Below, in pieces: positions 1,007 to 13,042 of a stretch of DNA of 64,000 nucleotides. This DNA is from a virus: positions 1 through 64,000 of the IMG/VR virus record IMGVR_UViG_3300044811_000010, one strand, 5' to 3'. The notes below the pieces were generated by a model. The model ran no database searches, was not told where the DNA came from, and worked only from the letters and a program-made list of their open reading frames with translations. Positions within the stretch are counted from its first letter, which is position 1. Each line of letters opens with the position of its first letter. Both the position numbers and the translations under genes were made by a program.

Positions 1007-1231
1007 ATGCAGCTCACCAACCGGCATCCTCGCCCGGCCGCTCTCGCGTCAGAACTCGCGGACGCTCAGGCGAAGCACAACGCGGAGGTCGCCGCCTCCA
1101 AGCAGCGACTAGCCGACAAGCGGGACTGGGTCGTTCAGCGGGCGACGGATCGAGTGCAGGCTGTTCGCGAGCTTCAGCGTGACCTGAAGACCGAAGAGCA
1201 GGCGCTCAGCGATCTGATCAAGGCCGCGTAG
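1007..1231 (+). CDS. Small coiled-coil protein
   Basis: 74 residues, almost entirely charged helix from residue 14 (alternating Ala/Glu/Lys/Arg/Gln heptads), so a coiled coil is likely. Start set at ATG 1007 because GAAGGAGG lies seven bases upstream; a longer in-frame extension from 914 lacks any such signal. It lies just before the first RNA array. No family recognised. Confidence 0.6.
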   Translation: MQLTNRHPRPAALASELADAQAKHNAEVAASKQRLADKRDWVVQRATDRVQAVRELQRDLKTEEQALSDLIKAA

Positions 1232-1251
1232 CTGATAGGCTACGGTGTGTA

Positions 1252-1325
1252 GGGCCGACGTTGGAGGGCAGAACGGGTAAACGGAAACGCCCCGGCTGTC
1301 GAGGGTTCGACTCCCTCTCGGTCCA
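1252..1325 (+). tRNA. Irregular tRNA-like element, anticodon unclear
   Basis: A seven-pair acceptor (1252-1258 with 1318-1324, including G3:U70), discriminator A1325 and a perfect T-arm (1301-1317, loop TTCGACT) are clear. The 42 nt between them is the normal length but does not fold into a standard D-arm plus anticodon arm. CGTT/AACG could form a D-stem, and CGGG/CCCG would enclose a 13-nt loop. It may be a decayed or modified tRNA, possibly alanine-chargeable through G3:U70. Confidence 0.4.
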
Positions 1326-1327
1326 TC

Positions 1328-1386
1328 GGGGATTACAGGCATCGACGCGCCTAGCGCGGACGTGGGTTCGACTCCCACAGTCTCCA
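1328..1386 (+). ncRNA. Minimal tmRNA-like tRNA domain without mRNA part
   Basis: 59 nt. The acceptor GGGGATT (1328-1334) pairs with AGTCTCC (1379-1385) including G3:U70, the alanine identity pair, followed by discriminator A1386. The T-arm is 1362-1378. Where a tRNA has its D-arm there is an unpaired stretch GGCATCGAC, close to the D-loop signature of tmRNA, and GGAC precedes the T-stem as in tmRNA. A four-pair stem CGCG/CGCG with loop CCTAG replaces the whole P2, tag and pseudoknot part. Could instead be an armless tRNA. Confidence 0.5.
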
Positions 1387-1388
1387 CT

Positions 1389-1681
1389 GCAAGGCAGTAC
1401 AGACGGCCGCGCGGTCCCCTGCTCAGGTAAGGCACCGTGAGGAAGGTCGAGGCATCGCGCCCCGCCACATTGGGGAGGACGAGGGGCAAGAGGGAGGGCT
1501 TAGGCCCGCTATGACCTCAACTGCGGTCAAGCGATGCGATCCCTGAAGCGCCGGCGAGTGGCAGCCGGACTGGTGGGAGCGGCGGTAGCGAGCAATCGCC
1601 CGCTAGAGCCTAGGCTCTAAGAAGGATGGTCGTCACCGGCACAGGCCGGCACAGAACCTCGCCTATCGGACTGACTTGCAT
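1389..1681 (+). ncRNA. rnpB: RNase P RNA (phage-encoded ribozyme)
   Basis: Catalytic RNA that trims tRNA 5' leaders. Both conserved ends are present: GAGGAAGGTCGAGGC (1439-1453, CR-I) and ACAGAACCTCGCCTATCGG (1651-1669, CR-V). Pairing supports the fold. P1: 1389-1398 with 1670-1679, ten pairs. P2: GACGGCC (1402-1408) with GGTCGTC (1628-1634). P4: CGAGG (1448-1452) with CCTCG (1657-1661), where E. coli has CCGGG/CCCGG, a compensated change. At about 293 nt it is shorter than the ~377-nt E. coli RNA, so the specificity domain is probably reduced. It begins two bases after the preceding tRNA-like element. The protein subunit is not seen here, so host RnpA may be used. Confidence 0.85.
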
Positions 1682-1704
1682 CTGTCAACGAAGTATGCTA
1701 GAGT
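1676..1704 (+). promoter_or_regulatory. tRNA-array promoter 1
   Basis: -35 TTGCAT (1676-1681), 17-bp spacer, -10 TAGAGT (1699-1704). The same layout and similar spacer recur at 9604-9632 before the third tRNA array. The -35 overlaps the 3' end of the RNase P RNA. Confidence 0.7.
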
Positions 1705-1713
1705 TCTTCGAAC

Positions 1714-1762
1714 GCCGCAGAGGTTGGCTCTGTAGGAGGTTTGAATCCTCCGTGCGGCTCCA
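1714..1762 (+). ncRNA. 49-nt mini tRNA-like element with encoded CCA
   Basis: Begins about ten bases after the -10 of promoter 1, close to the predicted transcript start. Stem GCCGCA (1714-1719) pairs with TGCGGC (1753-1758), then T1759 and an encoded CCA. A perfect T-arm (GGAGG, loop TTTGAAT, CCTCC) is present. Only one other hairpin (AGAG/CTCT) replaces both D-arm and anticodon arm. It may be a tRNA relic or a processed mimic. Confidence 0.4.
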
Positions 1763-1835
1763 GGGGGTGTAGCTCTAACGGTAGAGCGCCTGCCTTGCAA
1801 GCAGAGGGTTGTGGGTTCGAATCCCATCTCCTCCA
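1763..1835 (+). tRNA. tRNA-Ala(TGC)
   Basis: 73 nt; loop CTTGCAA reads TGC. The G3:U70 pair agrees with alanine identity. No encoded CCA. Confidence 0.93.
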
Positions 1836-1863
1836 CTTGGGGAGTCTTCGGGCTCCCCGCCAA

Positions 1864-1935
1864 GCGCCGCTAACTCAGCGGGAGAGTGCCACGGTGACAA
1901 CGTGGAAGTCGCAAGTTCGATTCTTGCGCGGCGCA
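1864..1935 (+). tRNA. tRNA-Val(GAC)
   Basis: 72 nt; perfect acceptor GCGCCGC/GCGGCGC; stem CCACG/CGTGG with loop GTGACAA. No CCA. The spacer before it (1840-1858) holds a small hairpin GGGAG/CTCCC. Confidence 0.93.
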
Positions 1936-1941
1936 CTTCAT

Positions 1942-2014
1942 GGCCCTGTAGCTCAGCGTGTAGAGCGTCCGGTTTACACCCGGCAGGTCGTAGGTTCGAA
2001 TCCTACCAGGGCCA
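1942..2014 (+). tRNA. tRNA-Val(TAC)
   Basis: 73 nt; acceptor GGCCCTG/CAGGGCC; loop TTTACAC reads TAC; no CCA. Confidence 0.92.
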
Positions 2015-2019
2015 CTCAT

Positions 2020-2096
2020 GGGACAGTATCCCCTCCGTCTGATAAGCGGTAGAAAGGGTAGCTGGTAACACGAGGGTTCAACTCCTTCCTGTCCCA
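2020..2096 (+). tRNA. Irregular tRNA-Ile(GAT)-like element with displaced D-arm motif
   Basis: Acceptor GGGACAG/CTGTCCC, T-arm (2072-2088) and discriminator A2096 are normal. An anticodon-like hairpin TCCGT-CTGATAA-GCGGT (loop reads GAT, isoleucine) follows the acceptor after only seven bases, so no D-arm lies before it. A D-arm-like sequence (GTAGCTGGTAACAC) occurs after it, inside a 21-nt variable region. If functional it would supply the only Ile(GAU) isoacceptor of the set. Confidence 0.45.
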
Positions 2097-2100
2097 CTCC

Positions 2101-2173
2101 GCAGCGGTAGCTCAATTGGTAGAGCACCACCTTGCCATGGTGGATGTCGCGAGTTCGAATCTCGTCCGCTGCT
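2101..2173 (+). tRNA. tRNA-Gly(GCC)
   Basis: 73 nt; acceptor GCAGCGG/CCGCTGC, stem CCACC/GGTGG, loop TTGCCAT; no CCA. Confidence 0.93.
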
Positions 2174-2176
2174 TAC

Positions 2177-2249
2177 GCCTCCGTAACTCAAATGGCTAGA
2201 GGCCCGGCTCTTACCCGGTGCGATGCGGGTTCGATTCCTGCCGGGGGTA
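2177..2249 (+). tRNA. tRNA-Lys(CTT)
   Basis: 73 nt; acceptor GCCTCCG/CGGGGGT with G:U pairs; loop CTCTTAC reads CTT; no CCA. Confidence 0.9.
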
Positions 2250-2253
2250 CTTC

Positions 2254-2326
2254 GCTCGCATGGCGCAAATGGCAGCGCACTCCCTTGGTATGGGAGAGGT
2301 TCTGAGTTCGAGTCTCAGTGTGAGCT
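2254..2326 (+). tRNA. tRNA-Thr(GGT)
   Basis: 73 nt; acceptor GCTCGCA/TGTGAGC; stem CTCCC/GGGAG, loop TTGGTAT; no CCA. Confidence 0.92.
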
Positions 2327-2327
2327 T

Positions 2328-2365
2328 CGGTGGGAAATGTCGGCCGTAAGGCTGGGCGCCCATCG
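2328..2365 (+). other. Structured spacer, tRNA-like double stem without T-arm
   Basis: CGGTGGG pairs with CCCATCG (one G:U), enclosing a second hairpin CGGCC-GTAA-GGCTG. It fills the gap between two Thr tRNAs. No T-loop, so not a tRNA; possibly a relic or processing element. Confidence 0.35.
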
Positions 2366-2369
2366 GTAC

Positions 2370-2437
2370 GCCTCGCCATCAGGAGATGGCCTGTCCCTTG
2401 TAAGGACGGAGGCTGGGTTCGAGTCCCAGGCGAGGCT
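2370..2437 (+). tRNA. tRNA-Thr(TGT), short D-arm
   Basis: 68 nt; acceptor GCCTCGC/GCGAGGC, loop CTTGTAA. The D-arm is only CATC-AGGA-GATG, with no GG loop. No CCA. Confidence 0.85.
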
Positions 2438-2441
2438 CTTC

Positions 2442-2508
2442 GCCGGACGATCAGGGATCAGCCGTCTTTCGTAAGGACGGCAGACGAGTTCGATTCTCGT
2501 GTTCGGCT
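2442..2508 (+). tRNA. tRNA-Thr(CGT), short D-arm
   Basis: 67 nt; acceptor GCCGGAC/GTTCGGC, stem CGTCT/GGACG, loop TTCGTAA. Minimal D-arm GATC-AGG-GATC. No CCA. Confidence 0.83.
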
Positions 2509-2511
2509 TAC

Positions 2512-2584
2512 GCAGGTGTGTTCACAACGGCATGATGCTGGCCTTCCAAGCCATGCGATGAGGGTTCGACTCCCTTCACCTGTT
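2512..2584 (+). tRNA. tRNA-Gly(TCC)
   Basis: 73 nt; acceptor GCAGGTG/CACCTGT, stem TGGC/GCCA, loop CTTCCAA. Followed by an encoded CCA at 2585-2587, which almost all the others lack. Confidence 0.88.
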
Positions 2585-2596
2585 CCAAGGTTGTAG

Positions 2597-2658
2597 GTCA
2601 CCACGACCGCTGACTCCCGCGCGCATAAAGACGTAAGGCGCGGGGCGAGGACGGTGAC
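2597..2658 (+). other. Structured spacer RNA between tRNA-Gly and tRNA-Phe
   Basis: The 82-base spacer forms an outer stem GTCACC/GGTGAC around a strong inner stem CCCGCGC/GCGCGGG with a ~16-nt loop. It lacks tRNA features and hammerhead core bases. Function unknown. Confidence 0.4.
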
Positions 2659-2669
2659 TGCGTCTATGC

Positions 2670-2742
2670 GGCTTCGTAGCTCAGTCGGTAGAGCAGGCCC
2701 CTGAAAAGGGTCGTGTCGCAGGTTCGAATCCTGCCGAAGCCA
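2670..2742 (+). tRNA. tRNA-Phe(GAA)
   Basis: 73 nt; acceptor GGCTTCG/CGAAGCC; loop CTGAAAA; no CCA. Last gene of the first array. Confidence 0.94.
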
Positions 2743-2746
2743 CTTC

Positions 2747-2786
2747 AACGCCCGCTAGAGAGGTCCGATCCCTCCTAGCGGGCGTT
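2747..2786. terminator. Bidirectional terminator hairpin
   Basis: Perfect 12-bp inverted repeat AACGCCCGCTAG / CTAGCGGGCGTT between the convergent ends of the first RNA array and the leftward operon ending at 2794. Confidence 0.75.
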
Positions 2787-2793
2787 CTGCGTT

Positions 2794-2994
2794 CTAGGGC
2801 TTGAGGAACGTGACGACGAGTCCGATGGTGTAAGGATCTCGTTGGTTGCCACCTTCCAGCGCTGAAGCAGACGACAGTGCGTAGCCAGCGTCTGCTGCAG
2901 CCTTCAGCTCGGCGACGAACGTCTCGGTGTCTGACAGAGACGCCGGGATTGGGGTCTTCACCGTCACGGTGTCCACGCGCTTGACCTCGATCAT
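2794..2994 (-). CDS. Small hypothetical protein
   Basis: 66 residues beginning MIEVKRVDTV. Start at ATG 2994 because it overlaps the stop of the upstream gene (ATGA); the longer frame reaching 3081 would run through that gene. Predicted beta strand, then an Ala-rich helix, then a beta strand (TIGLVVTFLKP). No family recognised. Last gene of a leftward operon starting at 3946. Confidence 0.6.
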   Translation of the reverse strand: MIEVKRVDTVTVKTPIPASLSDTETFVAELKAAADAGYALSSASALEGGNQRDPYTIGLVVTFLKP

Positions 2995-3203
2995 CCGAGC
3001 ACCAGTACGCTGTTGGCGTTCTTGACCACCGAGACGTGGCCTAGATCGTTCTCGATCCTGATGCGATAGACGACGTGCCACTGGCTGACGCGCTTAGGCT
3101 CCCCAGGGTCGAGGACGACGCCGGGAACGACTTGGCCGCTCTGGTTGTAAGCAACCCTAGCGCCCCTCGTGATCTCAGTACCTCGGCTGTCGCAGACGAT
3201 CAT
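2991..3203 (-). CDS. Small beta-rich hypothetical protein
   Basis: 70 residues, compact and beta-rich (VAYNQSGQVVPGVVLD, WHVVYRIRIEND). It overlaps its upstream and downstream neighbours by four bases each, so it is translationally coupled between the phosphoesterase and the terminal small gene. The sequence suggests an SH3-like or KOW-like barrel, but that is only an impression. Confidence 0.6.
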   Translation of the reverse strand: MIVCDSRGTEITRGARVAYNQSGQVVPGVVLDPGEPKRVSQWHVVYRIRIENDLGHVSVVKNANSVLVLG

Positions 3204-3946
3204 CGGGATTCACCGGCTGCCTTGGCTGCCGCCTTGCGGCCGGCGGCGTCATCGAGCTGCTCCTGCGTCGTCTCGGGGTAGACACCTAGGATCGCAGCGT
3301 CGAGCAGCAGCTTGAGGTTGACGGGGCGGTACTTCGTCTGCTCGACCGAGAGGTTGATGTGGTTGCGGACGAACGGAACGAAGGCGTCCCGGCTGTAGCC
3401 GTTGTTGTGGATGTGGCCGTGGACGCGGATGTGGTCGGCGGACATGGGCCCGTCCTCGGCGTCGTTCCATGCGTAGTGCGAGAAGCTGACTTGGTGCTGG
3501 CAGTCGGCCGGGTCGCCGAGTGGGTCGTCAAACCCGCGCACGCGCAGGTACGGCTCCTCTGCGTGGACTTCGAGGCCCAGCGCGAACGGCCGCACGACTT
3601 GGAAGCCTGACTTCTTGTAGAAGCTGTAGGGCTGCTTGTCGTGGTTGCCGATGATCAGCAGCTTACGGGCGCCGGTCAGCTCCTTGGCGATCAGGTGCTT
3701 GAAGCGGCCGTTGCCTCGGTAGCTGAGGTCGCCAAGGTGGAGCACCGTAGCGTCGTCAGGCACTTGGGCTCGCCATTCGGCGATCATCACTTGCTCGTGG
3801 TCTTCCGGCCTATGGCAGAAGCCGACGATGTTGTCGTGGCCGAAGTGCGTGTCGGAGACGATCCAAGTGTTCTCTGGGTCGATGTCGTCACGGAACTTCA
3901 TGGCCGGGCGCGATTCGGACGCGCTGCCGGTTCTAGAGTTGCTCAT
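3200..3946 (-). CDS. Calcineurin-like metallophosphoesterase
   Basis: 248 residues with the metal-binding motifs in order: SDTHFGH (31-37), GDLSY (72-76), GNHDK (100-104), a SHYAWN histidine block and GHIHN. Phage members of this family hydrolyse phosphoesters, but the substrate cannot be told from sequence. ATG 3946 lies six bases after a -10 box, so the transcript is probably leaderless; ATG 3901 is an alternative start with no Shine-Dalgarno site. First gene of a three-gene coupled operon. Confidence 0.85.
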   Translation of the reverse strand: MSNSRTGSASESRPAMKFRDDIDPENTWIVSDTHFGHDNIVGFCHRPEDHEQVMIAEWRAQVPDDATVLHLGDLSYRGNGRFKHLIAKELTGARKLLIIGNHDKQPYSFYKKSGFQVVRPFALGLEVHAEEPYLRVRGFDDPLGDPADCQHQVSFSHYAWNDAEDGPMSADHIRVHGHIHNNGYSRDAFVPFVRNHINLSVEQTKYRPVNLKLLLDAAILGVYPETTQEQLDDAAGRKAAAKAAGESR

Positions 3947-3952
3947 ACGAGA

Positions 3953-3958
3953 ATCGTA
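3953..3958 (-). promoter_or_regulatory. -10 box of leaderless promoter
   Basis: TACGAT with upstream TGG on the minus strand, six bases before ATG 3946. Two copies of GTGCTAATC lie further upstream (about 3972-4001), possible operators. Confidence 0.55.
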
Positions 3959-4026
3959 CCACTAACGGGCCTGATTAGCACGCTTTCGCGAGCGATTAGC
4001 ACGATCACCGGCCCGGAATCGAAGAT

Positions 4027-4059
4027 AAAGTGGCGGTTAGAGGGTCTAACCGCAACTTT
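4027..4059 (-). terminator. Terminator of the NAD salvage operon
   Basis: 15-bp inverted repeat with one mismatch (AAAGTGGCGGTTAGA / TCTAACCGCAACTTT) around GGG, just after the stop at 4068 in the leftward direction. Confidence 0.65.
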
Positions 4060-4067
4060 ACTGGCAC

Positions 4068-4409
4068 TCAGAACCCGAGTTCGTCAAGGCTGGCGCGTGG
4101 GTCGGAATCTAGGACCACTTCTTCGCCGCTGCAGCCCCAAGGCTCGGCGCAGGGGACGTGATGTGGGCACGGACGGGCAACGCGCTTGTAGCCCTTCGGA
4201 ATGCTGCGCGCCCTAGGAGGCGTCGGCTTGTCGATGAACACGCCGAACTCCTTGAAGCAGTCGGCGCAGAGGTCGTACTTGCGATCCGGGTACAGCCCAG
4301 GGTCCTGCTGACGGCCGTTTGCCTTCAGGCCGGGCACGTCGATGGTGCGGCGACCGCTGCGGATTTCCCTACCGCAGCGGTCGCACTCGATGATGTTCCT
4401 GACGCCCAT
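4068..4409 (-). CDS. Zinc-ribbon protein of the NAD salvage operon
   Basis: 113 residues. ECDRCG (8-13) and LCADC (47-51) form a CxxC...CxxC zinc ribbon. A second cysteine/histidine cluster (CPHHVPCAEPWGC) follows around residues 80-92. The gene overlaps the NAMPT stop by one base and is the last of the operon, so it is made together with the two NAD enzymes. No function is known to me; metal binding is inferred. Confidence 0.65.
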   Translation of the reverse strand: MGVRNIIECDRCGREIRSGRRTIDVPGLKANGRQQDPGLYPDRKYDLCADCFKEFGVFIDKPTPPRARSIPKGYKRVARPCPHHVPCAEPWGCSGEEVVLDSDPRASLDELGF

Positions 4410-5812
4410 CAGAGCGCCGCCCTCTCACGGATCTGGTCGAACGTCTGCTCGTTGACGAGCTGGCCGTCCTTGAACACCGTCTGCAGCGCGTCGCACTCGT
4501 CGTTGTCGAGCCACACGCCTTCCCTGTCCGTGTGGAAGGTGTTGTGCTGCAGGTTCTGGATCAGTGTCAAGCGGCCCTTCTTCGACGCCTTGGTGGAGTC
4601 CAAGGGCTTCTTGTACACGTCGTGCCACTCGCCGTCGCGTTGCTGAGCGCTGCTCTTGAACGCGAAGCGGCAGGTGTCGCGGTTGAGGCGCTGCAGGAGG
4701 CCTCCGCCCATCCCGAACACGAGGTTCTCGGGGCTGAACCCCTGCAACATAGCGCGGTTGACGATCTTCTCGATGCCATGCTCGTCAATCCCGTCGCCCC
4801 ACAGCAGCCGGACGTGCGGGTCGAGGACCCTGAATCCCTTAGGCGTCTGGGTTCCGCCGTAGTAGCTCCACAGCCGCTCCAAGAGCGCCGAGGTCAGGAG
4901 CTGCGGAGTCGGATGGTCGCGCGTGACCGAGTCCGGCCGCACGACGAACACGCCGTCGCGCGAGAGGATGCGGTCCTTGAACGTCGTCCCGACCCGATCC
5001 ACGAACTCGTAGATGTCGTAGGAGTCCGCGACGACGCTGAGGATGCCGCCGGGGTGGTTGTCGAGAAGCCGCGACGTGATCGCGGCCTCTCCATCACGGC
5101 CGAGCGAGGTCATGACCGAGTGCTCGGTCGCCGGAACGCTGAACGCCAGCGTGTTGGGGTCAGCGCCATAGTCACGGATTGCCAGAAGCAGCGCCGGCAG
5201 CGTGTCAGCGCCAACGAAGCTCGTCAAATGGCCCGCCACGGCAATCGCGGCGGCCTCATGGCCCGCTGCACCCCGGTATCCGAAGTCGTGGAGCATGAAT
5301 TGAAGCCCATCGAGGCCCGATCCGGCCGCAGTGAGGCGTTCGGCGAGCATTCGCTTGACCGAGCGGCTCCTAGTGGCAACCGTCGTCGGGTACCAGACGT
5401 GCATGAGCAGCGATTCGAGCGCGTTGGTGAGCCAGAACGCATCGGGGTCGGTGTTCTCGACCGCCATCAGCACGTTCCCGACCGGGACAACGGACCCCTC
5501 GGGCACGGCCTTGATGTGCAGCGGCAGACGCCCTCCATGCCGGTCGATGATCGTCTCCCAGCCCTTGTAGTTGAAGACCGAAGCGTCCCCGAAGTGGACC
5601 CGAGCCAGCTCGAAGGCTTCACTGAGGTTCTCGTAGGTCACGCGAGGGATGGTCTTCAGGATGGACTGCAGGCCGAAGAACACCGTCTCGTCGTACTCCG
5701 AACCCTGACGGGCTTCGAGGTAGCTGTAGACGCCGGTCGTGTTGGCCGGGTACTGATTCCAGTGGCCCAGCTTGTAACTGTCGGTTGCGAGGATCGGATT
5801 GTCGAGCATCAT
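4409..5812 (-). CDS. nadV: Nicotinamide phosphoribosyltransferase (NAMPT)
   Basis: 467 residues, normal length for the family. It joins nicotinamide and PRPP to give nicotinamide mononucleotide. The N-terminus DSYKLGHWNQYP and the later blocks HDFGYRGAAGHEAA, RPDSVTRDHPTPQ and FGMGGGLLQRLNRDT match NAMPT active-site regions. AAAGGAG eight bases before ATG 5812 sets the start. It lies three bases after the NMN adenylyltransferase gene in the same operon, so together they rebuild NAD+ from nicotinamide in two steps. Confidence 0.95.
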   Translation of the reverse strand: MMLDNPILATDSYKLGHWNQYPANTTGVYSYLEARQGSEYDETVFFGLQSILKTIPRVTYENLSEAFELARVHFGDASVFNYKGWETIIDRHGGRLPLHIKAVPEGSVVPVGNVLMAVENTDPDAFWLTNALESLLMHVWYPTTVATRSRSVKRMLAERLTAAGSGLDGLQFMLHDFGYRGAAGHEAAAIAVAGHLTSFVGADTLPALLLAIRDYGADPNTLAFSVPATEHSVMTSLGRDGEAAITSRLLDNHPGGILSVVADSYDIYEFVDRVGTTFKDRILSRDGVFVVRPDSVTRDHPTPQLLTSALLERLWSYYGGTQTPKGFRVLDPHVRLLWGDGIDEHGIEKIVNRAMLQGFSPENLVFGMGGGLLQRLNRDTCRFAFKSSAQQRDGEWHDVYKKPLDSTKASKKGRLTLIQNLQHNTFHTDREGVWLDNDECDALQTVFKDGQLVNEQTFDQIRERAAL

Positions 5813-5814
5813 GG

Positions 5815-6885
5815 CTACGACTCCTTTCGATTGAGGTAGTCCACCAGCATCCCCATCAGCGGACGGTGCTCGGGGACAAGGTTGTTGTAGAACTGCTCTC
5901 GGGAGACTGGGTTGCCGAGTTCCTTCCCGTACTTCACGTCAGGCAGGTCAATCCACTTGACCTCTTCGATGTCGTCGCCCGGCGTGGGGCGGCCGTGGGT
6001 GTACTGCGCCGTGAACAGCATCGTCTTGATGCAGTCCGGCTCGTTGCGGTAGCGCCAGTCATCGACTCGAAGCGACCCGACGTAGCGCACATCCTCGACG
6101 TTCAGGCTCGTCTCTTCCTGAACCTCACGCTTGGCGTCGGCCTCGAAGCTGTCGGAGCGCGGGTCGGAGAAACCGCCAATGAAGCGATAGAGCGTCTCGT
6201 TTGGCTTGCGGCCGAGCAGAAGCTGCAAGGGCTTCTCCGTCGCATAGAAGGCTGCGGCCTCGTCTCGATGCACCGGACACGCAGTCCGTGGCTGGCAGCT
6301 TCGACAGTCGATCCACGACTGCGAAGCCTTGCGCTCGCGCGAGGGAACGTCCTTGAGAATCGCCACGTCTACCGTCGTGTAGGCGGTCGGGAAGCGGGCC
6401 TGCGACGCCCAGATGACGCCGGCACGGAACTCGGGGCTGGACTTAGCCCGGCTGCGGGCGATGTCCTTGCGCTGCGCGCGGCCGGAGTAGAACGTGGTCT
6501 GCGTCAGCTCCTGCGTCGGGTGGTTGCCCGTGTAGTGGCTGATGAAGGAGTCGCGGCCGCCGTAGAGGACGACGCTCTGGCCGGGAGCGACGAGGTTGGC
6601 GATGTTGTCGTCAAGAACGTGCGACCACGCGCGGTCGTTGTTCAAGTCCTTGACGTACAGGACGTTGGCCTCGGGGAACTCCGCGAGGATCATCTGCTTG
6701 CGCGCCTCGAAGTCGAGCGGATTGTTCGTGGAGACGGAAAGCGGCGAAAGGCCGAGGAAGATGATGACCTTGTCGTGCCGGTCGCAGACGTACTTGATCA
6801 GCTCCCTATGAGCGTTGTGCAGCTCATGGACCTGGAATCGCCCTACCAGTACCCCTACGTCGTACTGCTTCTCTGTTGGCTGCAT
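5815..6885 (-). CDS. nadM: Bifunctional NMN adenylyltransferase / Nudix hydrolase
   Basis: 356 residues. N-terminal nucleotidyltransferase: GRFQ (15-18) with HNAH (23-26), plus the block PLSVSTNNPLDFEARKQM. C-terminal Nudix domain: box starting GGFSDPRSDSFEADAKREV with QEET. The first domain makes NAD+ from NMN and ATP. The Nudix part in relatives cleaves ADP-ribose or similar, which could remove products of NADase defences. I chose ATG 6885 (GAAGGAGG upstream) over ATG 6921, which has no ribosome site. Confidence 0.9.
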   Translation of the reverse strand: MQPTEKQYDVGVLVGRFQVHELHNAHRELIKYVCDRHDKVIIFLGLSPLSVSTNNPLDFEARKQMILAEFPEANVLYVKDLNNDRAWSHVLDDNIANLVAPGQSVVLYGGRDSFISHYTGNHPTQELTQTTFYSGRAQRKDIARSRAKSSPEFRAGVIWASQARFPTAYTTVDVAILKDVPSRERKASQSWIDCRSCQPRTACPVHRDEAAAFYATEKPLQLLLGRKPNETLYRFIGGFSDPRSDSFEADAKREVQEETSLNVEDVRYVGSLRVDDWRYRNEPDCIKTMLFTAQYTHGRPTPGDDIEEVKWIDLPDVKYGKELGNPVSREQFYNNLVPEHRPLMGMLVDYLNRKES

Positions 6886-6942
6886 CAGGCGCAAACCTCC
6901 TTCTATGTCCGGGCCGCGCATCGGTGCGACGGCTCTACGAGA

Positions 6943-6948
6943 ACCGTA
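6943..6948 (-). promoter_or_regulatory. Extended -10 box of the NAD salvage operon
   Basis: TGG-TACGGT on the minus strand, about 57 bases before ATG 6885. Here a leader with a strong Shine-Dalgarno site follows, unlike the leaderless genes. Confidence 0.5.
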
Positions 6949-6974
6949 CCACAGGGCGGCGACGAGCGCAAGGG

Positions 6975-6980
6975 TAGAGT
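6975..6980 (+). promoter_or_regulatory. -10 box of leaderless promoter
   Basis: TAGAGT ends six bases before GTG 6987. Confidence 0.45.
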
Positions 6981-6986
6981 GGGAGG

Positions 6987-7391
6987 GTGGCTTTTCTCCG
7001 AGTAGTCAGAAAGAACTGGGTAGTGATTCTACTTCTGTTCGCCATCGTCTCGTCCTTCTTGGCGTCGATGCAGCAGACGCGCGCCGACACGGCTCAAGTT
7101 CGATCCAAGGCAATCGCCCTCTGCACCATCGACAACCAACGCGCCGTGCTGGTCATCACCTTCAAGTTCTCGGTGGCGAGGGCGGCGGACAAGCGCGGCG
7201 AGCACGCGGCGGCTGCTCACTTCCGGGCTCTTGGAGATAGTGGGCTGGCGTTGATCCCACTTGCCCCGGAAGATCAAGCCGAGCGAGCCCACCTAGCCGA
7301 TGTCATTCCGCAGGGAGGGCACTTCGTGCTGCCGCAGAAGGCGAAGGACGCGATCCGCGCGGGATGCGTGGATTCCTACCGCGCCAACTAG
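6987..7391 (+). CDS. Membrane-anchored small protein
   Basis: 134 residues, GTG start fixed by the -10 box six bases upstream. Residues 10-27 (NWVVILLLFAIVSSFLAS) form one transmembrane segment after a basic N-terminus, so the rest is probably outside the membrane. Two cysteines (CTIDN and AGCVDSYRAN) may pair. A similar plan (anchor, C..N, distal AxC) occurs in the protein at 60944. Function unknown. Confidence 0.6.
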   Translation: MAFLRVVRKNWVVILLLFAIVSSFLASMQQTRADTAQVRSKAIALCTIDNQRAVLVITFKFSVARAADKRGEHAAAAHFRALGDSGLALIPLAPEDQAERAHLADVIPQGGHFVLPQKAKDAIRAGCVDSYRAN

Positions 7392-7406
7392 GTCAGAGAA
7401 GCGTGC

Positions 7407-7412
7407 TATAGT
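7407..7412 (+). promoter_or_regulatory. -10 box of second tRNA array
   Basis: TATAGT, ten bases before tRNA-Tyr; the -35 region is weak. Confidence 0.5.
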
Positions 7413-7421
7413 CCCTGACGC

Positions 7422-7499
7422 GCTGCCGCGCATAGGCGAGCAAGGCCGGCTGTAACCCGGCGTCCTCTGGACTTGCAGGTTCGACTCCTGACGGCAGCA
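7422..7499 (+). tRNA. tRNA-Tyr(GTA)
   Basis: 78 nt, class II with variable arm GTCC-TCT-GGAC; stem GCCGG/CCGGC, loop CTGTAAC. No CCA. One mismatch at the base of the T-stem. Confidence 0.9.
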
Positions 7500-7503
7500 C
7501 TTC

Positions 7504-7587
7504 GGAAGGCTCCGCTTGGTGGCAGGCAACTCGGTTCGAACCCGAGGGCGGCGTTTCTCGTTGGGGGTTCGACTCCTCAGCCTTCCG
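7504..7587 (+). tRNA. tRNA-Ser(CGA)
   Basis: 84 nt, class II; acceptor GGAAGGC/GCCTTCC, stem CTCGG/CCGAG, loop TTCGAAC. Same T-stem mismatch as the Tyr tRNA. No CCA. Confidence 0.87.
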
Positions 7588-7591
7588 CTTC

Positions 7592-7663
7592 GTCGTAGTG
7601 CTGGGAGTGGCGACCAGCCGGGCTGCAACCCCGAGAACGTCGGTTCGAATCCGACCTACGACT
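7592..7663 (+). tRNA. tRNA-Cys(GCA)
   Basis: 72 nt; acceptor GTCGTAG/CTACGAC, loop CTGCAAC, no CCA. Confidence 0.92.
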
Positions 7664-7666
7664 TAC

Positions 7667-7753
7667 GGAGAGGACCCGGCTGGATCAGGAGCTTGCCCGC
7701 TAAGCAAGTAGCGCGTCCTAGATGTGTTCGGGGTTCGAGTCCCCGTCTCTCCG
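7667..7753 (+). tRNA. tRNA-Ser(GCT)
   Basis: 87 nt, class II; stem CTTGC/GCAAG, loop CCGCTAA. Position 33 is C instead of the near-universal U. The 5' half is nearly identical to the next Ser tRNA. No CCA. Confidence 0.88.
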
Positions 7754-7758
7754 CTCAC

Positions 7759-7844
7759 GGAGAGGACCCGGCTGGATCAGGAGCATCCCTGGAAAGGATG
7801 TGCGGCGGTCACGCGTCTTCAGGGTTCGAGTCCCTGTCTCTCCG
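7759..7844 (+). tRNA. tRNA-Ser(GGA)
   Basis: 86 nt, class II; stem CATCC/GGATG, loop CTGGAAA; no CCA. Recent duplicate of the Ser(GCT) gene, judging by the shared acceptor and D-arm. Confidence 0.92.
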
Positions 7845-7997
7845 CTTGATCGCTCCAACGGCTGCCCCGAGTAGCGCGACGATCATCACCAGTGCCGCAA
7901 GTGCCGCCACTACGACAGCCGCGTAGATGACGATGAAGGGCAGCAGGATCCCCGCGACGAGCGCGATTCCGGTGCCCAAGCAGCCTCCGTCAGACAT
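7809..7997 (-). CDS. Small two-helix membrane protein overlapping tRNA-Ser
   Basis: 62 residues. Residues 9-50 are almost wholly hydrophobic (ALVAGILLPFIVIYAAVVV, then AALVMIVALLGAAVGAI), giving one long or two short transmembrane helices before a charged tail. The last 36 bases run antisense through tRNA-Ser(GGA). It follows the CCA-adding enzyme by 34 bases. The overlap lowers confidence. Confidence 0.5.
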   Translation of the reverse strand: MSDGGCLGTGIALVAGILLPFIVIYAAVVVAALAALVMIVALLGAAVGAIKRRDRDSNPEDA

Positions 7998-8031
7998 CAG
8001 CCGCAGCAGACTCCACTGCAGGCGCCGCAGC

Positions 8032-9564
8032 TCACGCGAGCGCCTCGGCCCGCGTGAGCTGCCACTCCCGCGACATCGTCTGCTCGGTGGGCTGGCAGAC
8101 GACATCGTCCAGCACGGCGTTGAGGATCTCGCCGATCTTGCGGCCGTCCGCGCCGATGGCGCGCACGTCATGGCCGTTGATCTTCAGGTCCCTCGGAGAC
8201 GTGGGGACGTTGTCCTTCTCCGCCTCACGGCGCAGCAGTTCCATCCGGCTGATCTGCTCGATGTGACCCTTGTTGGGCTTGCCCTTGCCAGTCAGGTCGC
8301 ACATGCGGTGCAGGAACAGGTCGGCCAGCAGCTCGTCCCCGAACTGCACACGCATCCGGCGGACCTTCGAGCCCTTGAGCTTGCCGTCGACGGTGACCAT
8401 GTGATTGCGAATGAGCAGGCGCACGTCCTCGCGCAGACCGTTGCCTGCGTTCAGGCGCCGAGCGGTCTTGTTCCAGATGCGGGCGCCCGCAACCTCGTGG
8501 TCCTCCGTGGCGACCATCATCGGCGCGCCGCTAGCGACAGAGCGGGACGCGGTCCCGTCCTGAGCGTAGTAGTGCTTGCGTCCGTCCTTCCCAATCCACG
8601 CCGTCTCAGGCTTGCCCGCGTCGTGGAACAGCAGGGCCATGCGGACGCGCAGCGGCGCGTCGACGTGCGTAGCCGTCGTCAGAGCAGCGAACGTGTGCTC
8701 GTCGGTGGTCAGGTCGTGGTAGCGCGAGCCCTGATCGAAGCCGATCATCGGAGCCAGCTCAGGCAGCAGTGTGGCGAGAACGCCAGTGTCGAGCGCCAGC
8801 CTCAGCGCCTTGACCGGCTCGTCGCCCATCAGCAGCTTGCACAGCTCTTCCAGCACGGTTCCGGACGCGTAGCCATTGGCGCTCAGGCCGTTTACAGCGT
8901 CAGCGTGCTCACGCATCTGGTCGAGCGTGTTGCTCGACAGGTCGTAGCCAAGCGTCGAAACGAAGCGCAGAGCACGCAGCGTGCGCAGCGGGTCGTCGCG
9001 GAACGAATCCGGGTGAGTGGTGCGGATGATCTTATGGCTCAGGTCGTACAGGCCGCAGTTCGTCGGGTCCACGACGTTCTCGACCAGTGCCCCGCCCGAC
9101 ATGGTGGTCAACGAAGACATGCCGGCAGTCGGATCCACGATCTTGTAGAGAGCGTTGAACGTGAAGTCACGGCGCACGGCGTCTTCGTCCAGCCGCAGGT
9201 TCGGGTCAACCACGATGTCAAACGCGCGATGCACGTTCTCGCCGGGGGCGGGCGCGCGAGGGCGCTCCGTGCGCGGCAGGACGACTTCGATCAGACCCAT
9301 GCCGCGCGCGGCGACCCGCCATCCGGCCTGCCGACCATCGCGCAGCACCAGCGGGGAAACGACGTTGGACTTGTTCGCGGGGTCGTACCGAATCGCGGCG
9401 TCCTTGAGCGCAATGCCCAGCTTCGCCAGTCCGACGCCTCGGATCATGTAGTCAGCGTCCTTGACCTTGCGGCCGATCAGTTCGTCTCGAACGGAGCCGC
9501 CGACGCGGTAGGCTTCGAAGCCCAGGCCGGCGATGAAAGTGTCTGTCCGCTCGATGTACGCCAT
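8032..9564 (-). CDS. cca: CCA-adding tRNA nucleotidyltransferase
   Basis: 510 residues. Adds or repairs the 3' CCA end of tRNA. The nucleotidyltransferase head has GGSVRD (22-27) and the catalytic DAD (36-38). A central basic RNA-binding part follows, then an HD domain with LLFHDAGKPETA around residue 305. ATG 9564 is chosen because a -10 box (TACGTT) ends six bases before it; the longer frame to 9609 crosses that promoter. It lies between two tRNA arrays whose genes almost all lack CCA, so these tRNAs depend on such an enzyme. Confidence 0.93.
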   Translation of the reverse strand: MAYIERTDTFIAGLGFEAYRVGGSVRDELIGRKVKDADYMIRGVGLAKLGIALKDAAIRYDPANKSNVVSPLVLRDGRQAGWRVAARGMGLIEVVLPRTERPRAPAPGENVHRAFDIVVDPNLRLDEDAVRRDFTFNALYKIVDPTAGMSSLTTMSGGALVENVVDPTNCGLYDLSHKIIRTTHPDSFRDDPLRTLRALRFVSTLGYDLSSNTLDQMREHADAVNGLSANGYASGTVLEELCKLLMGDEPVKALRLALDTGVLATLLPELAPMIGFDQGSRYHDLTTDEHTFAALTTATHVDAPLRVRMALLFHDAGKPETAWIGKDGRKHYYAQDGTASRSVASGAPMMVATEDHEVAGARIWNKTARRLNAGNGLREDVRLLIRNHMVTVDGKLKGSKVRRMRVQFGDELLADLFLHRMCDLTGKGKPNKGHIEQISRMELLRREAEKDNVPTSPRDLKINGHDVRAIGADGRKIGEILNAVLDDVVCQPTEQTMSREWQLTRAEALA

Positions 9565-9570
9565 GGGAGA

Positions 9571-9576
9571 AACGTA
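9571..9576 (-). promoter_or_regulatory. -10 box of leaderless cca promoter
   Basis: TGG-TACGTT, with TTGCGC 17 bases upstream as -35; six bases to ATG 9564. Confidence 0.6.
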
Positions 9577-9603
9577 CCACATTGGGCTTCCGGGCGCAAG
9601 TTC

Positions 9604-9632
9604 TTGCACATGTCACGAAGATGTGCTAGAGT
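9604..9632 (+). promoter_or_regulatory. tRNA-array promoter 3
   Basis: -35 TTGCAC (9604-9609), 17 bp, -10 TAGAGT (9627-9632). Near copy of promoter 1 at 1676. Confidence 0.7.
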
Positions 9633-9640
9633 CCCATCTC

Positions 9641-9680
9641 TGGTCAGCGCTCCGTCGGCGACGGCGGGTAGCGGGGCCAG
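9641..9680 (+). other. Structured leader of third tRNA array
   Basis: Between promoter and first tRNA: nested pairing CTGG/CCAG, CGCT/AGCG and a perfect CCGTC-GGC-GACGG hairpin. No T-loop. It occupies the place held by the mini tRNA-like element after promoter 1. Confidence 0.4.
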
Positions 9681-9685
9681 GACAC

Positions 9686-9757
9686 TGAGGAGTAGTGTAA
9701 TGGCAGCACCGGAGTCCTTGAAACTTCGTAGTGCGGGTTCGAGTCCCGCCTCCTCAT
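9686..9757 (+). tRNA. tRNA-Gln(TTG)
   Basis: 72 nt beginning with U1 as usual for Gln; loop CCTTGAA, so position 33 is C. No CCA. Confidence 0.86.
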
Positions 9758-9761
9758 TCAC

Positions 9762-9833
9762 TGCGGAATGGTGTAACGGCAGCATGGCGGGTTCTGAGCC
9801 CGTTCGATCTAGGTTCGAATCCTAGTTCCGCAG
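9762..9833 (+). tRNA. tRNA-Gln(CTG)
   Basis: 72 nt; acceptor TGCGGAA/TTCCGCA, loop TTCTGAG, no CCA. Confidence 0.92.
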
Positions 9834-9838
9834 CTCAC

Positions 9839-9909
9839 TGGCGTGTAGCTCAAGGGCAGAGCCTCCGGTTGTTACCCGGCGGATGAGGGTTCGAATCCTT
9901 CCATGCCAG
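9839..9909 (+). tRNA. tRNA-Asn(GTT)
   Basis: 71 nt; acceptor TGGCGTG/CATGCCA, loop TTGTTAC, no CCA. Confidence 0.91.
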
Positions 9910-9914
9910 CTCAT

Positions 9915-9988
9915 CAGCGTGTGGCGCAGTCTGGTAGCGCTCTTTTCTGGGGAAAATGAGGTCGCAGGTTCAAATCCTGCCACGCTGA
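9915..9988 (+). tRNA. tRNA-Pro(GGG)
   Basis: 74 nt starting C1 (Pro-like); loop CTGGGGA, no CCA. Confidence 0.9.
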
Positions 9989-9994
9989 CTTCTC

Positions 9995-10067
9995 GCAGCC
10001 ATGGTCTAGTGGTCATGATGCCGGCCTTTCAAGCCGGACGACGAGGGTTCGAATCCCTCTGGCTGTA
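9995..10067 (+). tRNA. tRNA-Glu(TTC)
   Basis: 73 nt; stem CCGGC/GCCGG, loop CTTTCAA, no CCA. Confidence 0.92.
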
Positions 10068-10071
10068 CTAC

Positions 10072-10144
10072 GGCGCGTTGGGGTAACGGTTAGCCTCTCA
10101 GCTTCTCAAGCTGCTGGATACGAGTTCGAATCTCGTACGCGCTA
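10072..10144 (+). tRNA. tRNA-Glu(CTC)
   Basis: 73 nt; acceptor GGCGCGT/ACGCGCT, loop TTCTCAA, no CCA. Confidence 0.9.
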
Positions 10145-10149
10145 CTCAT

Positions 10150-10221
10150 CGGGATCAAGTGTTTATGGCTGCACCGGCCCCTCGGACGGGTCAAGACGGA
10201 GTTCGAATCTCCGGTTCCCGA
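10150..10221 (+). tRNA. tRNA-Pro(CGG)
   Basis: 72 nt starting C1; stem GGCCC/GGGTC, loop CTCGGAC. One U:U mismatch in the acceptor. No CCA. Confidence 0.84.
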
Positions 10222-10225
10222 CTTC

Positions 10226-10308
10226 GCTCCCGTGGTGGAATGGTAGACGCGCTAGGTCGAGAGCCTAGTGCCCTAACGGGCGTGCAGGTTCAAGTCCTGC
10301 CGGGAGCA
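10226..10308 (+). tRNA. tRNA-Leu(GAG)
   Basis: 83 nt, class II with arm GCCC-TAAC-GGGC; stem CTAGG/CCTAG, loop TCGAGAG, so position 33 is C. No CCA. Confidence 0.88.
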
Positions 10309-10314
10309 CTGCAT

Positions 10315-10399
10315 ACCAGCGTGGTGAAATTTGGTAGACGCAGCAGGTTCAGAACCTGCCGGCCGCAAGGTCTTGAGGGTTCAAGTCCCTCCGCTGGTA
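10315..10399 (+). tRNA. tRNA-Leu(CAG)
   Basis: 85 nt, class II; stem GCAGG/CCTGC, loop TTCAGAA, no CCA. Confidence 0.9.
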
Positions 10400-10403
10400 C
10401 TAC

Positions 10404-10488
10404 GCAAGAGTGGCGAAATGGGTAAACGCTCCGGGCTCAAACCCCGGCGAGGTCATTCCTCTTGAGGGTTCGATTCCCTCCTCTTGTA
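10404..10488 (+). tRNA. tRNA-Leu(CAA)
   Basis: 85 nt, class II; stem CCGGG/CCCGG, loop CTCAAAC, no CCA. Confidence 0.92.
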
Positions 10489-10492
10489 CTAC

Positions 10493-10566
10493 GTCTCCTT
10501 AGCTCAGCAGGATAGAGCGCTGGTCCGCGAAGCCAGAGGCCGCAGGTTCGAATCCTGCAGGGGACG
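10493..10566 (+). tRNA. tRNA-Arg(GCG)
   Basis: 74 nt; acceptor GTCTCCT/AGGGGAC; stem CTGGT/GCCAG, loop CCGCGAA with C33. No CCA. Confidence 0.86.
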
Positions 10567-10570
10567 CTCC

Positions 10571-10644
10571 GGTGATGTAACTCAGTCGGATAGAGTGGCG
10601 GCTTGTCAAGCCGTTGGTCGCGGGTTCGAGTCCCGTCATCACCG
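10571..10644 (+). tRNA. tRNA-Asp(GTC)
   Basis: 74 nt; acceptor GGTGATG/CATCACC, loop TTGTCAA, G73 as expected for Asp. Confidence 0.93.
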
Positions 10645-10648
10645 CTTC

Positions 10649-10721
10649 GCCTCCGTAACTCAGCGGACAGAGTGCTTGGCCTCGAACCAAGTGGTCGCGG
10701 GTTCAAATCCTGCCGGGGGCG
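10649..10721 (+). tRNA. tRNA-Arg(TCG)
   Basis: 73 nt; stem CTTGG/CCAAG, loop CCTCGAA with C33. Similar body to tRNA-Lys at 2177. No CCA. Confidence 0.88.
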
Positions 10722-10727
10722 CTACAC

Positions 10728-10803
10728 GGTGAATGTAGACTAATCGGTCAAGTCCCTTGGTTGTGAACCAAGCCGATGCGGGTTCGAGTCCCGTCGTTCA
10801 CCC
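10728..10803 (+). tRNA. tRNA-His(GTG)
   Basis: 76 nt; stem CTTGG/CCAAG, loop TTGTGAA; discriminator C, typical of His. Confidence 0.9.
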
Positions 10804-10807
10804 TCTC

Positions 10808-10876
10808 GGGTCATAGGTCATGGCGACCAAGCAGGTTCCAACCCTGCAGGACAGCGTTCGATTCGTTGATGACCCG
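10808..10876 (+). tRNA. tRNA-Trp(CCA), short D-arm
   Basis: 69 nt; acceptor GGGTCAT/ATGACCC; D-arm GGTC-ATGGC-GACC; stem GCAGG/CCTGC, loop TTCCAAC. Confidence 0.87.
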
Positions 10877-10880
10877 CTTC

Positions 10881-10947
10881 GGCTCTCTGAAGGTACGACA
10901 CGGTCCCTCATAAGGACGGTGGACAGGTTCGAGTCCTGTGGGAGCTA
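10881..10947 (+). tRNA. tRNA with CAT anticodon, reduced D-arm
   Basis: 67 nt; acceptor GGCTCTC/GGGAGCT; stem GTCC/GGAC, loop CTCATAA. The D region has no convincing stem. Could be Met, or Ile(AUA) after lysidine modification. Confidence 0.75.
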
Positions 10948-10951
10948 CTTC

Positions 10952-11020
10952 GCCCTTGAAGTTGGATACGCGACGGCCCTCCTAAGGCTTGCGCAGCGAG
11001 TTCGATTCTCGCCGGGGGCT
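10952..11020 (+). tRNA. tRNA-Arg(CCT), reduced D-arm
   Basis: 69 nt; acceptor GCCCTTG/CGGGGGC; stem GGCC/GGCT, loop CTCCTAA; short D-arm; no CCA. Confidence 0.8.
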
Positions 11021-11021
11021 T

Positions 11022-11092
11022 CGCAGATAGGTGGTCTGGTGACCATTCGGGCCTCATAAGCCTGAGAGCAGGGTTCGACTCCCGGTCTGCTA
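11022..11092 (+). tRNA. tRNA with CAT anticodon
   Basis: 71 nt; loop CTCATAA. The acceptor CGCAGAT/GTCTGCT pairs except at C1:U72, a mismatch recalling initiator tRNA, but the anticodon stem lacks the three G:C pairs of initiators and the T-loop is then six bases. Met, initiator-like or Ile2 remain possible. Confidence 0.7.
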
Positions 11093-11099
11093 CTTGTGG

Positions 11100-12363: not shown

Positions 12364-12686
12364 ACCTGCAGCGACCCTAGCGACGCGTCGGCGCTACGCA
12401 TCTTGAACAGCTTACGTCGCTCGCGTTGAAGGGATGTGCTCGCTTCACGGATCTTCTTCCGGTTGCGCTCGGCGGTGTCAGTCGCCGGGCCGTAGGGGAA
12501 TCGCCCGATCTCGGATCGCAGGGGAGCCATGGCGGCCTTGATCCGCGTCAACGCCAGCTCGATGTCCTCGTTGCGCTGCGTGGAGGACTTCTTCGACCGG
12601 CGTCGATGGATCCGGCGGACCTGCTGAGCGTAGGCGACCGCCGCTTCCGCGCGCTCGATGCAATCCTGGGGTAGCTTGTTCGGCAT
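12360..12686 (-). CDS. Basic helical hypothetical protein
   Basis: 108 residues, very rich in Arg and Lys, predicted mostly helical (RRIHRRRSKKSSTQR, LQRERRKLFK), so a nucleic-acid contact is possible. ATG 12686 is six bases after a -10 box, and the TGATG junction also couples it to the upstream nuclease gene. No family recognised. Confidence 0.6.
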   Translation of the reverse strand: MPNKLPQDCIERAEAAVAYAQQVRRIHRRRSKKSSTQRNEDIELALTRIKAAMAPLRSEIGRFPYGPATDTAERNRKKIREASTSLQRERRKLFKMRSADASLGSLQV

Positions 12687-13042
12687 CAGACGAGCGTACC
12701 AGTTAGCGCACGCCAGCGCTCGTCCGCCGCTTCAAGGGCTGCGCGGCTGTATGGCGCGTCGCGGTAGAGAGGCGCAACGAAGTCAACATCCTCTAGAGAG
12801 GCAATGAAGCTAACGAGGGCCGCCGACGGAGAAAACCACTCCCCTCGAAGATGGTCAGCTAGGAAGCGATGATGAATGGCCGCCTCTTCTTCCCTGCCGA
12901 CTCCTCGGATAACGCCCCTGACACTCGACGGGTAGGGAAGCACACCCCCGAGCGCCGCAATCCTCTTCTTCAGCGACTGCTCGTCCCTGCTGAAGCCAAT
13001 CTTGATCGGGCCGTCAATGCCCATCTGCAGAAAGTACACCAT
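12686..13042 (-). CDS. GIY-YIG family protein (T5orf172 type)
   Basis: 118 residues. VYFLQMGIDGPIKIGFSRD starts the domain, followed by RIAALGG, EEEAAIHHRF and LRGEWF, the usual T5orf172 order. Such small GIY-YIG nucleases occur in many phages, either as mobile endonucleases or with unknown targets. ATG 13042 is fixed by the -10 box TACTAT six bases upstream; the longer frame crosses it. First gene of the leftward run 11194-13042. Confidence 0.78.
   Translation of the reverse strand: MVYFLQMGIDGPIKIGFSRDEQSLKKRIAALGGVLPYPSSVRGVIRGVGREEEAAIHHRFLADHLRGEWFSPSAALVSFIASLEDVDFVAPLYRDAPYSRAALEAADERWRALTGTLV
12693..12698 (-). promoter_or_regulatory. -10 box of leaderless promoter
   Basis: TGG-TACGCT on the minus strand, six bases before ATG 12686, inside the 3' end of the upstream gene. 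Confidence 0.5.

Follow-up and report, generated by a model that had tools for sequence, protein, structure and literature searches.

We have analyzed a 64-kb stretch of viral DNA (hereafter the window) that forms part of an 80,254-base IMG/VR virus record and encodes portal, major head, tape-measure and terminase genes. Within it, three arrays of tRNA genes occur together with an RNase P RNA (P RNA), a gene for a CCA-adding tRNA nucleotidyltransferase and a transfer-messenger RNA (tmRNA) consisting only of the tRNA-like domain (TLD), referred to here as the mini-tmRNA. The initial annotation had described these genes as a tRNA supply line in which the phage provides the 5′ ribozyme, the 3′ CCA enzyme and a recycling enzyme, thereby allowing translation to continue when defenses cut or sequester the tRNAs of the host. 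Judging from the window and its relatives, we consider it probable that the phage owns a tRNA production line with its own RNase P RNA and, alongside it, perhaps a decoy for SmpB.

ARAGORN called 29 tRNA genes spanning positions 1229 to 11093, 28 of which are ordinary tRNAs, and six more were recognized by eye in the gaps between these calls: Ile-GAU (2020-2096; 28.9 bits to the Rfam tRNA model, narrowly missing the cut-off of 29), Thr-CGU (~2442-2508), Ser-GCU (~7667-7754), Ser-GGA (~7759-7844), a tRNA with a CAU anticodon (~10880-10947) and Arg-CCU (~10951-11019). The resulting 34 tRNAs represent all 20 amino acids, in agreement with the earlier count of 33 tRNAs plus an irregular Ile(GAU)-like element that would complete the set. 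All three arrays lie on the plus strand. Array 1 (1763-2743; from ARAGORN, with Rfam for Ile) holds Ala, two Val, Ile, two Gly, Lys, three Thr and Phe; array 2 (7422-7846) holds Tyr, three Ser and Cys; and array 3 (9686-11093) holds two Gln, Asn, two Pro, two Glu, three Leu, three Arg, Asp, His, Trp and two CAU tRNAs. The spacers of 3-6 nt initially reported are found in array 3, except before its last unit and around the hand-read tRNAs, the ends of which are approximate, but array 1 also contains gaps of 28-82 nt. Only Gly-UCC, among the 29 ARAGORN calls, encodes CC(A) after the discriminator, in line with the earlier statement that all but one ordinary tRNA lack CCA. Trailers beginning N73-CU follow 22 of these 29 tRNAs. 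Three copies of the promoter-like motif TGCTANAGT are present in the 64 kb, one immediately before each array; 0.5 copies are expected, and three were reached by 2 of 100 shuffles. The -10-like motifs TGCTAGAGT (1696-1704), TGCTATAGT (7404-7412) and again TGCTAGAGT (9624-9632), all on the plus strand, precede arrays 1, 2 and 3, respectively.

Upstream of array 1 and on the same strand lies the RNase P RNA (1388-1680, from P1 to P1), with conserved region (CR) I at 1439 and CR V at ~1651. In a 12-kb search, the bacterial type A model of Rfam (RF00010) scored 32.4 bits (E = 3.5e-7) over 1391-1681, and the motifs CR I, CR IV and CR V are present. The L15 GGU loop, which binds the 3′ end of tRNA, was recognized by eye in all five phages in which such an RNA was found, and the bulged U of P4 is likewise present in five of five. 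The N73-CU trailers might conceivably suit this loop through G-U pairing. The specificity domain (S-domain) is shortened to about half, its loop measuring 67-79 nt in four phages versus 147-168 nt in three type A P RNAs from other viral records; CR II and CR III were not recognized by eye in the reduced phage P RNAs, which thus lack the features of a full S-domain.

Relatives of the window were retrieved with its major capsid protein (13 viral loci), with a metallophosphoesterase alignment (L101) and with a portal alignment (L135, record G043). The CCA-enzyme protein alone retrieved no viral relatives when used as a query, and the portal alignment gave no match in genome contigs. Records G002 (L087), G005 (L088) and G039 (L101) repeat the order seen in the window: tRNA-like elements are followed by an RNA bearing RNase P motifs and, past a promoter-like motif, by an array beginning Ala-Val. 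The P RNA of L101 is recognized by Rfam (56.9 bits, E = 8.4e-17). A strict motif descriptor, designed after the first four RNAs had been seen, was run on both strands of 132 partly overlapping loci (2.46 Mb), where its matches were confined to sites at which Rfam, blastn or synteny had already indicated a P RNA, and it gave no match in 1.28 Mb of shuffled sequence. A slightly relaxed version, which gave three off-target matches in 1.16 Mb of bacterial loci, located a fifth P RNA (L137:2604, record G043) that Rfam afterwards confirmed (54 bits, E = 1.2e-15). All five related records with a detected P RNA also encode the CCA enzyme, and the proposed combination of tRNA genes, 5′ ribozyme and 3′ CCA enzyme is on this basis well supported. 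In the distant relative G013, a complete 69.9-kb record, the descriptor found no P RNA and no CCA enzyme was found. The window P RNA region had no blastn match in cultured-phage records, which says little about divergent P RNAs. Among the blastn look-alikes from the cultured-phage search, MaAM05 and the Acinetobacter MD-2021a contigs were rejected as bacterial-looking by gene content, and MT835553 and MT836823, records without annotation, were set aside.

Immediately upstream of the P RNA, on the plus strand, is the mini-tmRNA (1328-1386), a 59-nt RNA with a T-arm, a G3:U70 pair and no encoded CCA. The Rfam tmRNA model is matched at both ends, with 51.3 bits against a cut-off of 47 in one run. 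The mRNA-like region is missing, a small stem stands in its place and there is no tag reading frame, and the element is therefore a TLD-only relative and not a complete tmRNA. The L087 copy scores 61.5 bits. Ordinary tRNAs reach at most 20.4 bits to this model in the window and L087 records, and up to 39.2 bits in other tRNA-rich records. The four clade copies measure 59-80 nt, and a short stem replaces the mRNA-like region in all of them. G3:U70 is found in these four and in two neighboring "up" elements (six of six); among the tRNAs that ARAGORN called at these four loci it is otherwise confined to tRNA-Ala. The P1 helix of the P RNA starts 0-1 nt past the discriminator base of the mini-tmRNA at four loci, three of them judged by eye. 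The "up" element of the window (1252-1325, plus strand) is tRNA-like and lacks an anticodon, with a 7-bp acceptor stem, G3:U70 and a T-arm; ARAGORN had called it as a "Pro-ggg" tRNA at 1229-1325, which we rejected as an ordinary tRNA. A counterpart with G3:U70 stands at the equivalent place in L101. In L101, ARAGORN also reported a "tmRNA*" that would encode a tag peptide, a call overlapping the P RNA that we dismissed as spurious.

Several observations weigh against these identifications. The RF00010 score of the window P RNA compares with an Rfam gathering score of 100 and misses the curated cut-off, and Rfam reports no match at E ≤ 1 for the P RNAs of L088 and L087. The P RNA of G043 has no adjacent mini-tmRNA and lies ~5.5 kb from the first array. 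The window mini-tmRNA reached only 42.7 bits, below the cut-off, in a second Rfam run, and Rfam identified a tmRNA in two of four clade members (window and L087), the copies in L088 and L101 giving no match. Because the P RNA score was below the cut-off, independent comparative proof was required, and it was obtained. With the core helices P1, P2, P4 and P5 placed on four RNAs (window, L087, L088 and L101), 118 of 120 cells (98.3%) were paired, although the strands of P1, P2 and P5 had been chosen partly by eye for complementarity, fixed offsets being used only for P4. Both sides had changed in 21 of the 30 core pairs, none of 500 shuffles did as well, and slid controls were 32-46% paired. Owing to the partly visual placement of the other helices, P4 provides the cleanest test: at fixed offsets from the GAGGA (CR I) and AGRA (CR V) motifs, 39 of 40 cells are paired across five phages, and the true partner assignment alone among 120 permutations reaches this value. 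We thus regard the assignment of 1388-1680 as a phage RNase P RNA as solid, and the presence of the RNase P RNA noted in the initial annotation is borne out by the Rfam match, the CR motifs, the L15 loop, the P4 bulge and the covariation of the core.

TLD-only tmRNAs are widespread in viral contigs and, apart from mycobacteriophage DS6A, have hardly been described before. A pattern scan of viral contigs gave at least 81 matches (80 loci, L146-L225). Of the 81 listed, 72 possess a complete acceptor stem including G3:U70, and nine failed this filter. After removal of duplicates, at least 56 distinct TLD-only RNAs of 64-81 nt remained among the matches listed, and 46 of the 56 were aligned. Their inner stem, which lies outside the search pattern, pairs in 309 of 336 cells in the 56 distinct RNAs, with a maximum of 174 in 2000 shuffles; L165:10377-10454 (minus strand) is an example with the conserved inner hairpin. 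In genome contigs 1 of 81 matches listed passed, a list filled by full tmRNAs that does not imply absence from prophages. Five cultured Streptomyces phages (LuckySocke, GiJojo, Alone3, pSt2308 and BRock), represented by six records, carry identical or similar RNAs that have no RNA annotation. According to a 2014 tmRNA survey, which gives DS6A as its one TLD-only case, a molecule similar to a TLD-only RNA strongly inhibits tmRNA, perhaps through titration of SmpB (PMC4131195). The TLD-only form points to a second function for the window locus, in which trans-translation of the host would be inhibited. The DS6A RNA is a single case; the window copy adjoins an RNase P RNA and belongs to the set of at least 56 distinct viral RNAs.

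The CCA enzyme is encoded between arrays 2 and 3 on the minus strand (8032-9564, with a possible start of the open reading frame at 9609). Pfam (PolyA_pol, 3.6e-11; RNA-binding domain, 8e-8) and PHROG (tRNA nucleotidyltransferase, 9.9e-44) agree with the earlier designation; the protein has a class II nucleotidyltransferase head and an RNA-binding domain, with CCA rather than poly(A) specificity predicted. The enzyme is found in all six closer clade records tested. The recycling enzyme, peptidyl-tRNA hydrolase Pth2, is of archaeal/eukaryotic type and is encoded at 43612-44172 on the minus strand (possible start at 44250). Its identity is upheld by PF01981 (1.9e-19; 70.4 bits versus a cut-off of 23), a model that in a control of 14 genomes matched only in the four archaea. 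Its inclusion in the tRNA system is less secure and may be inferred at most, as the gene lies 33 kb from the arrays and occurs in 2 of 12 records searched, mostly fragments. A Pth2 relative adjoins the terminase gene in G043.

From these elements, a production line may be proposed. The three arrays, each led by a promoter, would give rise to polycistronic precursors holding the 34 tRNAs. The phage P RNA, with a complete catalytic core and about half of the usual specificity domain, would most likely bind host RnpA and make 5′ cuts that also part neighboring tRNAs, RNase P alone being expected to suffice for tRNAs a few bases apart. Genes for RnpA (PF00825) and SmpB were not found in 11 records, a set that did not include G043 and G039; host proteins must therefore serve, and the phage P RNA probably borrows host RnpA. 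Short trailers would be trimmed by host exonucleases and the 3′ ends finished by the phage CCA enzyme; Pth2 may in addition recycle peptidyl-tRNAs. The dimeric pre-tRNAs of phage T4 lack CCA, and RNase P is reported to prefer CCA, such dimers being processed best after its addition (PMC11143913). With both P RNA and CCA enzyme, the line would thus lack only RnpA and exonucleases to be self-sufficient. The mini-tmRNA, judged by its position directly upstream of the P RNA to share its transcript, should be alanylated owing to G3:U70 and bind host SmpB, most likely dampening host trans-translation during infection.

The purpose of such a line may be different from the defense evasion initially suggested. 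We give close to even chances to the alternative that the tRNAs serve codon supply and translation speed for phage genes, with P RNA and CCA enzyme adding processing capacity for dozens of precursors; this would oppose the proposed purpose and not the production-line mechanism. By simple wobble rules the tRNA set reads 92.5% of the 12,705 codons of 36 window genes. With GCC and GCU set aside, which Ala-UGC may read if modified, 100 codons are left without a phage tRNA, and uncovered codons are nearly absent (TTA 0, AAA 2, ATA 3 and AGA 5). Such avoidance is consistent with codon supply, yet a high GC content yields the identical pattern, and the full set also has tRNAs for common codons, which every host would provide. 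Codon coverage suits replacement of the host tRNA pool better than a topping up of rare codons, and it is plausible that the line counters tRNA-cleaving defenses.

Other explanations concern the two RNAs themselves. It seems unlikely that the P RNA acts mainly as a decoy that sequesters host RnpA and halts host tRNA maturation while the arrays go unprocessed. The lack of a detectable RnpA gene in 11 records, the shortened S-domain and the adjacent mini-tmRNA, a plausible SmpB decoy with which it would form a pair of RNA decoys, are all consistent with this; however, a decoy would not need the catalytic core, the bulged U of P4 and the CCA-binding GGU that are kept in five of five phages, and in the clade the P RNA is always accompanied by tRNA arrays and a CCA enzyme. 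A working rescue function of the mini-tmRNA, whereby the alanylated TLD with SmpB would enter a stalled ribosome, take the peptide and drop off to be freed by Pth2, we find rather improbable. It accords with G3:U70 in all copies, with the intact T-arm and acceptor stem and with the phage-encoded Pth2; against it are the presence of Pth2 in so few records, the inhibition published for a similar molecule and the many viral contigs that carry a mini-tmRNA with few tRNAs (none near it in 22 of 26 viral loci scanned). It is scarcely credible that 1328-1386 and the P RNA are chance-captured, decaying remnants or attachment-site (attP) pieces of host genes. The "up" element and the element at 1714-1762 are degenerate in appearance, and tmRNA genes are common integration sites. 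Decay would nevertheless not leave double-sided compensatory changes across P1, P2, P4 and P5 or the paired inner stem of the TLD-only RNAs, and attP pieces would carry one gene end only.

A bolder possibility, which we hold to be doubtful, is that the production line and its SmpB decoy amount to an RNA-only takeover of the host tRNA economy, the P RNA capturing RnpA and the TLD-only tmRNA capturing SmpB. If so, mostly phage pre-tRNAs would be matured, some with degenerate arms, host ribosome rescue would be shut down, and TLD-only tmRNAs would constitute a general viral class of anti-trans-translation RNAs.

The first unit past the promoter motif of array 1 is a truncated, two-armed tRNA-like element with encoded CCA (1714-1762, plus strand), in place of which relatives carry a minihelix. 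In the window, L087 (5081-5115), L135 (3422-3445) and L101 (~12685-12722, minus strand), the unit that follows an array promoter is either two-armed or a bare minihelix; it ends in UCC(A) and immediately precedes the first tRNA or tRNA-like element. In G013, a "Val-aac" element (L091:5813-5898, minus strand) with G3:U70 and 32.4 bits to the tmRNA model is perhaps another anticodon-less tmRNA-like RNA. Elsewhere in the window, adjacent NAMPT-like and NUDIX-domain genes (4409-6921, minus strand) are suggestive of nicotinamide adenine dinucleotide (NAD+) salvage against an NAD-depleting defense, and a primase-like protein is encoded at 54217-55371 (minus strand) with a match to AEP-TOTE (PF22548).

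RNase P RNAs also occur in viral records outside this clade. Full-length type A P RNAs scoring 253-280 bits, above the Rfam cut-off, are present in L052-L054, and those in G016, G033 and G035 stand 0-2 nt from neighboring tRNAs. No CCA enzyme match was found in these last three records, which may be incomplete. As the full-length type A RNAs form a separate lineage, viral tRNA arrays seem to have acquired an RNase P RNA on more than one occasion. G033 and G035 encode a phage portal and a Ro60/TROVE protein, the latter beside the P RNA-containing tRNA arrays (L097:1252-2973 and L099:15924-17663). Ro60 binds tRNA-like Y RNAs in other systems. Two plasmid P RNAs had no tRNAs nearby. At L055-L058 (G034, G026, G024 and G020), a 382-base P RNA match is recognizable in its 3′ half only, sequences resembling tRNA-Phe and tRNA-Pro occupy the position expected for the 5′ half, and a look at larger surrounding loci revealed no CR I; this P RNA is a broken or split ribozyme. 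A link between S-domain loss and tRNAs lacking a D-arm, defined as an anticodon position of 31 or less in ARAGORN lists and counted by hand, was considered and is not relied on: 12 of 143 clade tRNAs were of this kind, versus none of the 53 at three type A loci (p = 0.039), but the type A count became 1 of 61 when four further loci from those records (L096-L099) were added (p = 0.11).

Phage tRNAs are usually thought to rely on host RNase P, with T4 as the textbook case. A virus equipped with its own RNase P RNA would be evidence that the maturation of tRNAs is itself contested during infection and, as half of the specificity domain is missing, this RNA would represent a minimal ribozyme of natural origin. 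The TLD-only tmRNAs, in turn, suggest that phages commonly block trans-translation, and the cultured Streptomyces phages that carry them make this idea directly testable. A search of the open-access literature, with subscription papers and most preprints outside its scope, found no phage-encoded RNase P RNA.

Among known systems, the closest likeness of the ribozyme is to bacterial type A RNase P RNA (RF00010), with which it shares the P1-P5 core, CR I, CR IV, CR V, the P4 bulged U and the L15 GGU; it differs in standing beside a tRNA array, in its shorter S-domain loop and in scoring below the Rfam cut-off. The C-domain of E. coli RNase P RNA cleaves without the S-domain (PMC5839562), and the phage P RNA resembles these constructs in that a catalytic domain would act with little or no S-domain; they are laboratory-made, whereas the phage RNA occurs naturally and retains a short S-domain. 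CCA enzymes and tmRNA have been described in huge phages (PMC7162821). The Xanthomonas jumbo phage XacN1 is similar in carrying 56 tRNA genes that cover 20 amino acids, together with a CCA nucleotidyltransferase and a peptidyl-tRNA hydrolase, but no RNase P RNA is reported and the main text does not mention RNase P (PMC5852040). For mycobacteriophages of cluster C1, with ~33 tRNAs per phage, evasion of anticodon nucleases has been proposed (PMC10264068), and it is on such work with other phages that the defense reading of the window draws; they differ from the window in that RNase P goes unmentioned in that main text, while here an RNase P RNA lies upstream of the first tRNA array.

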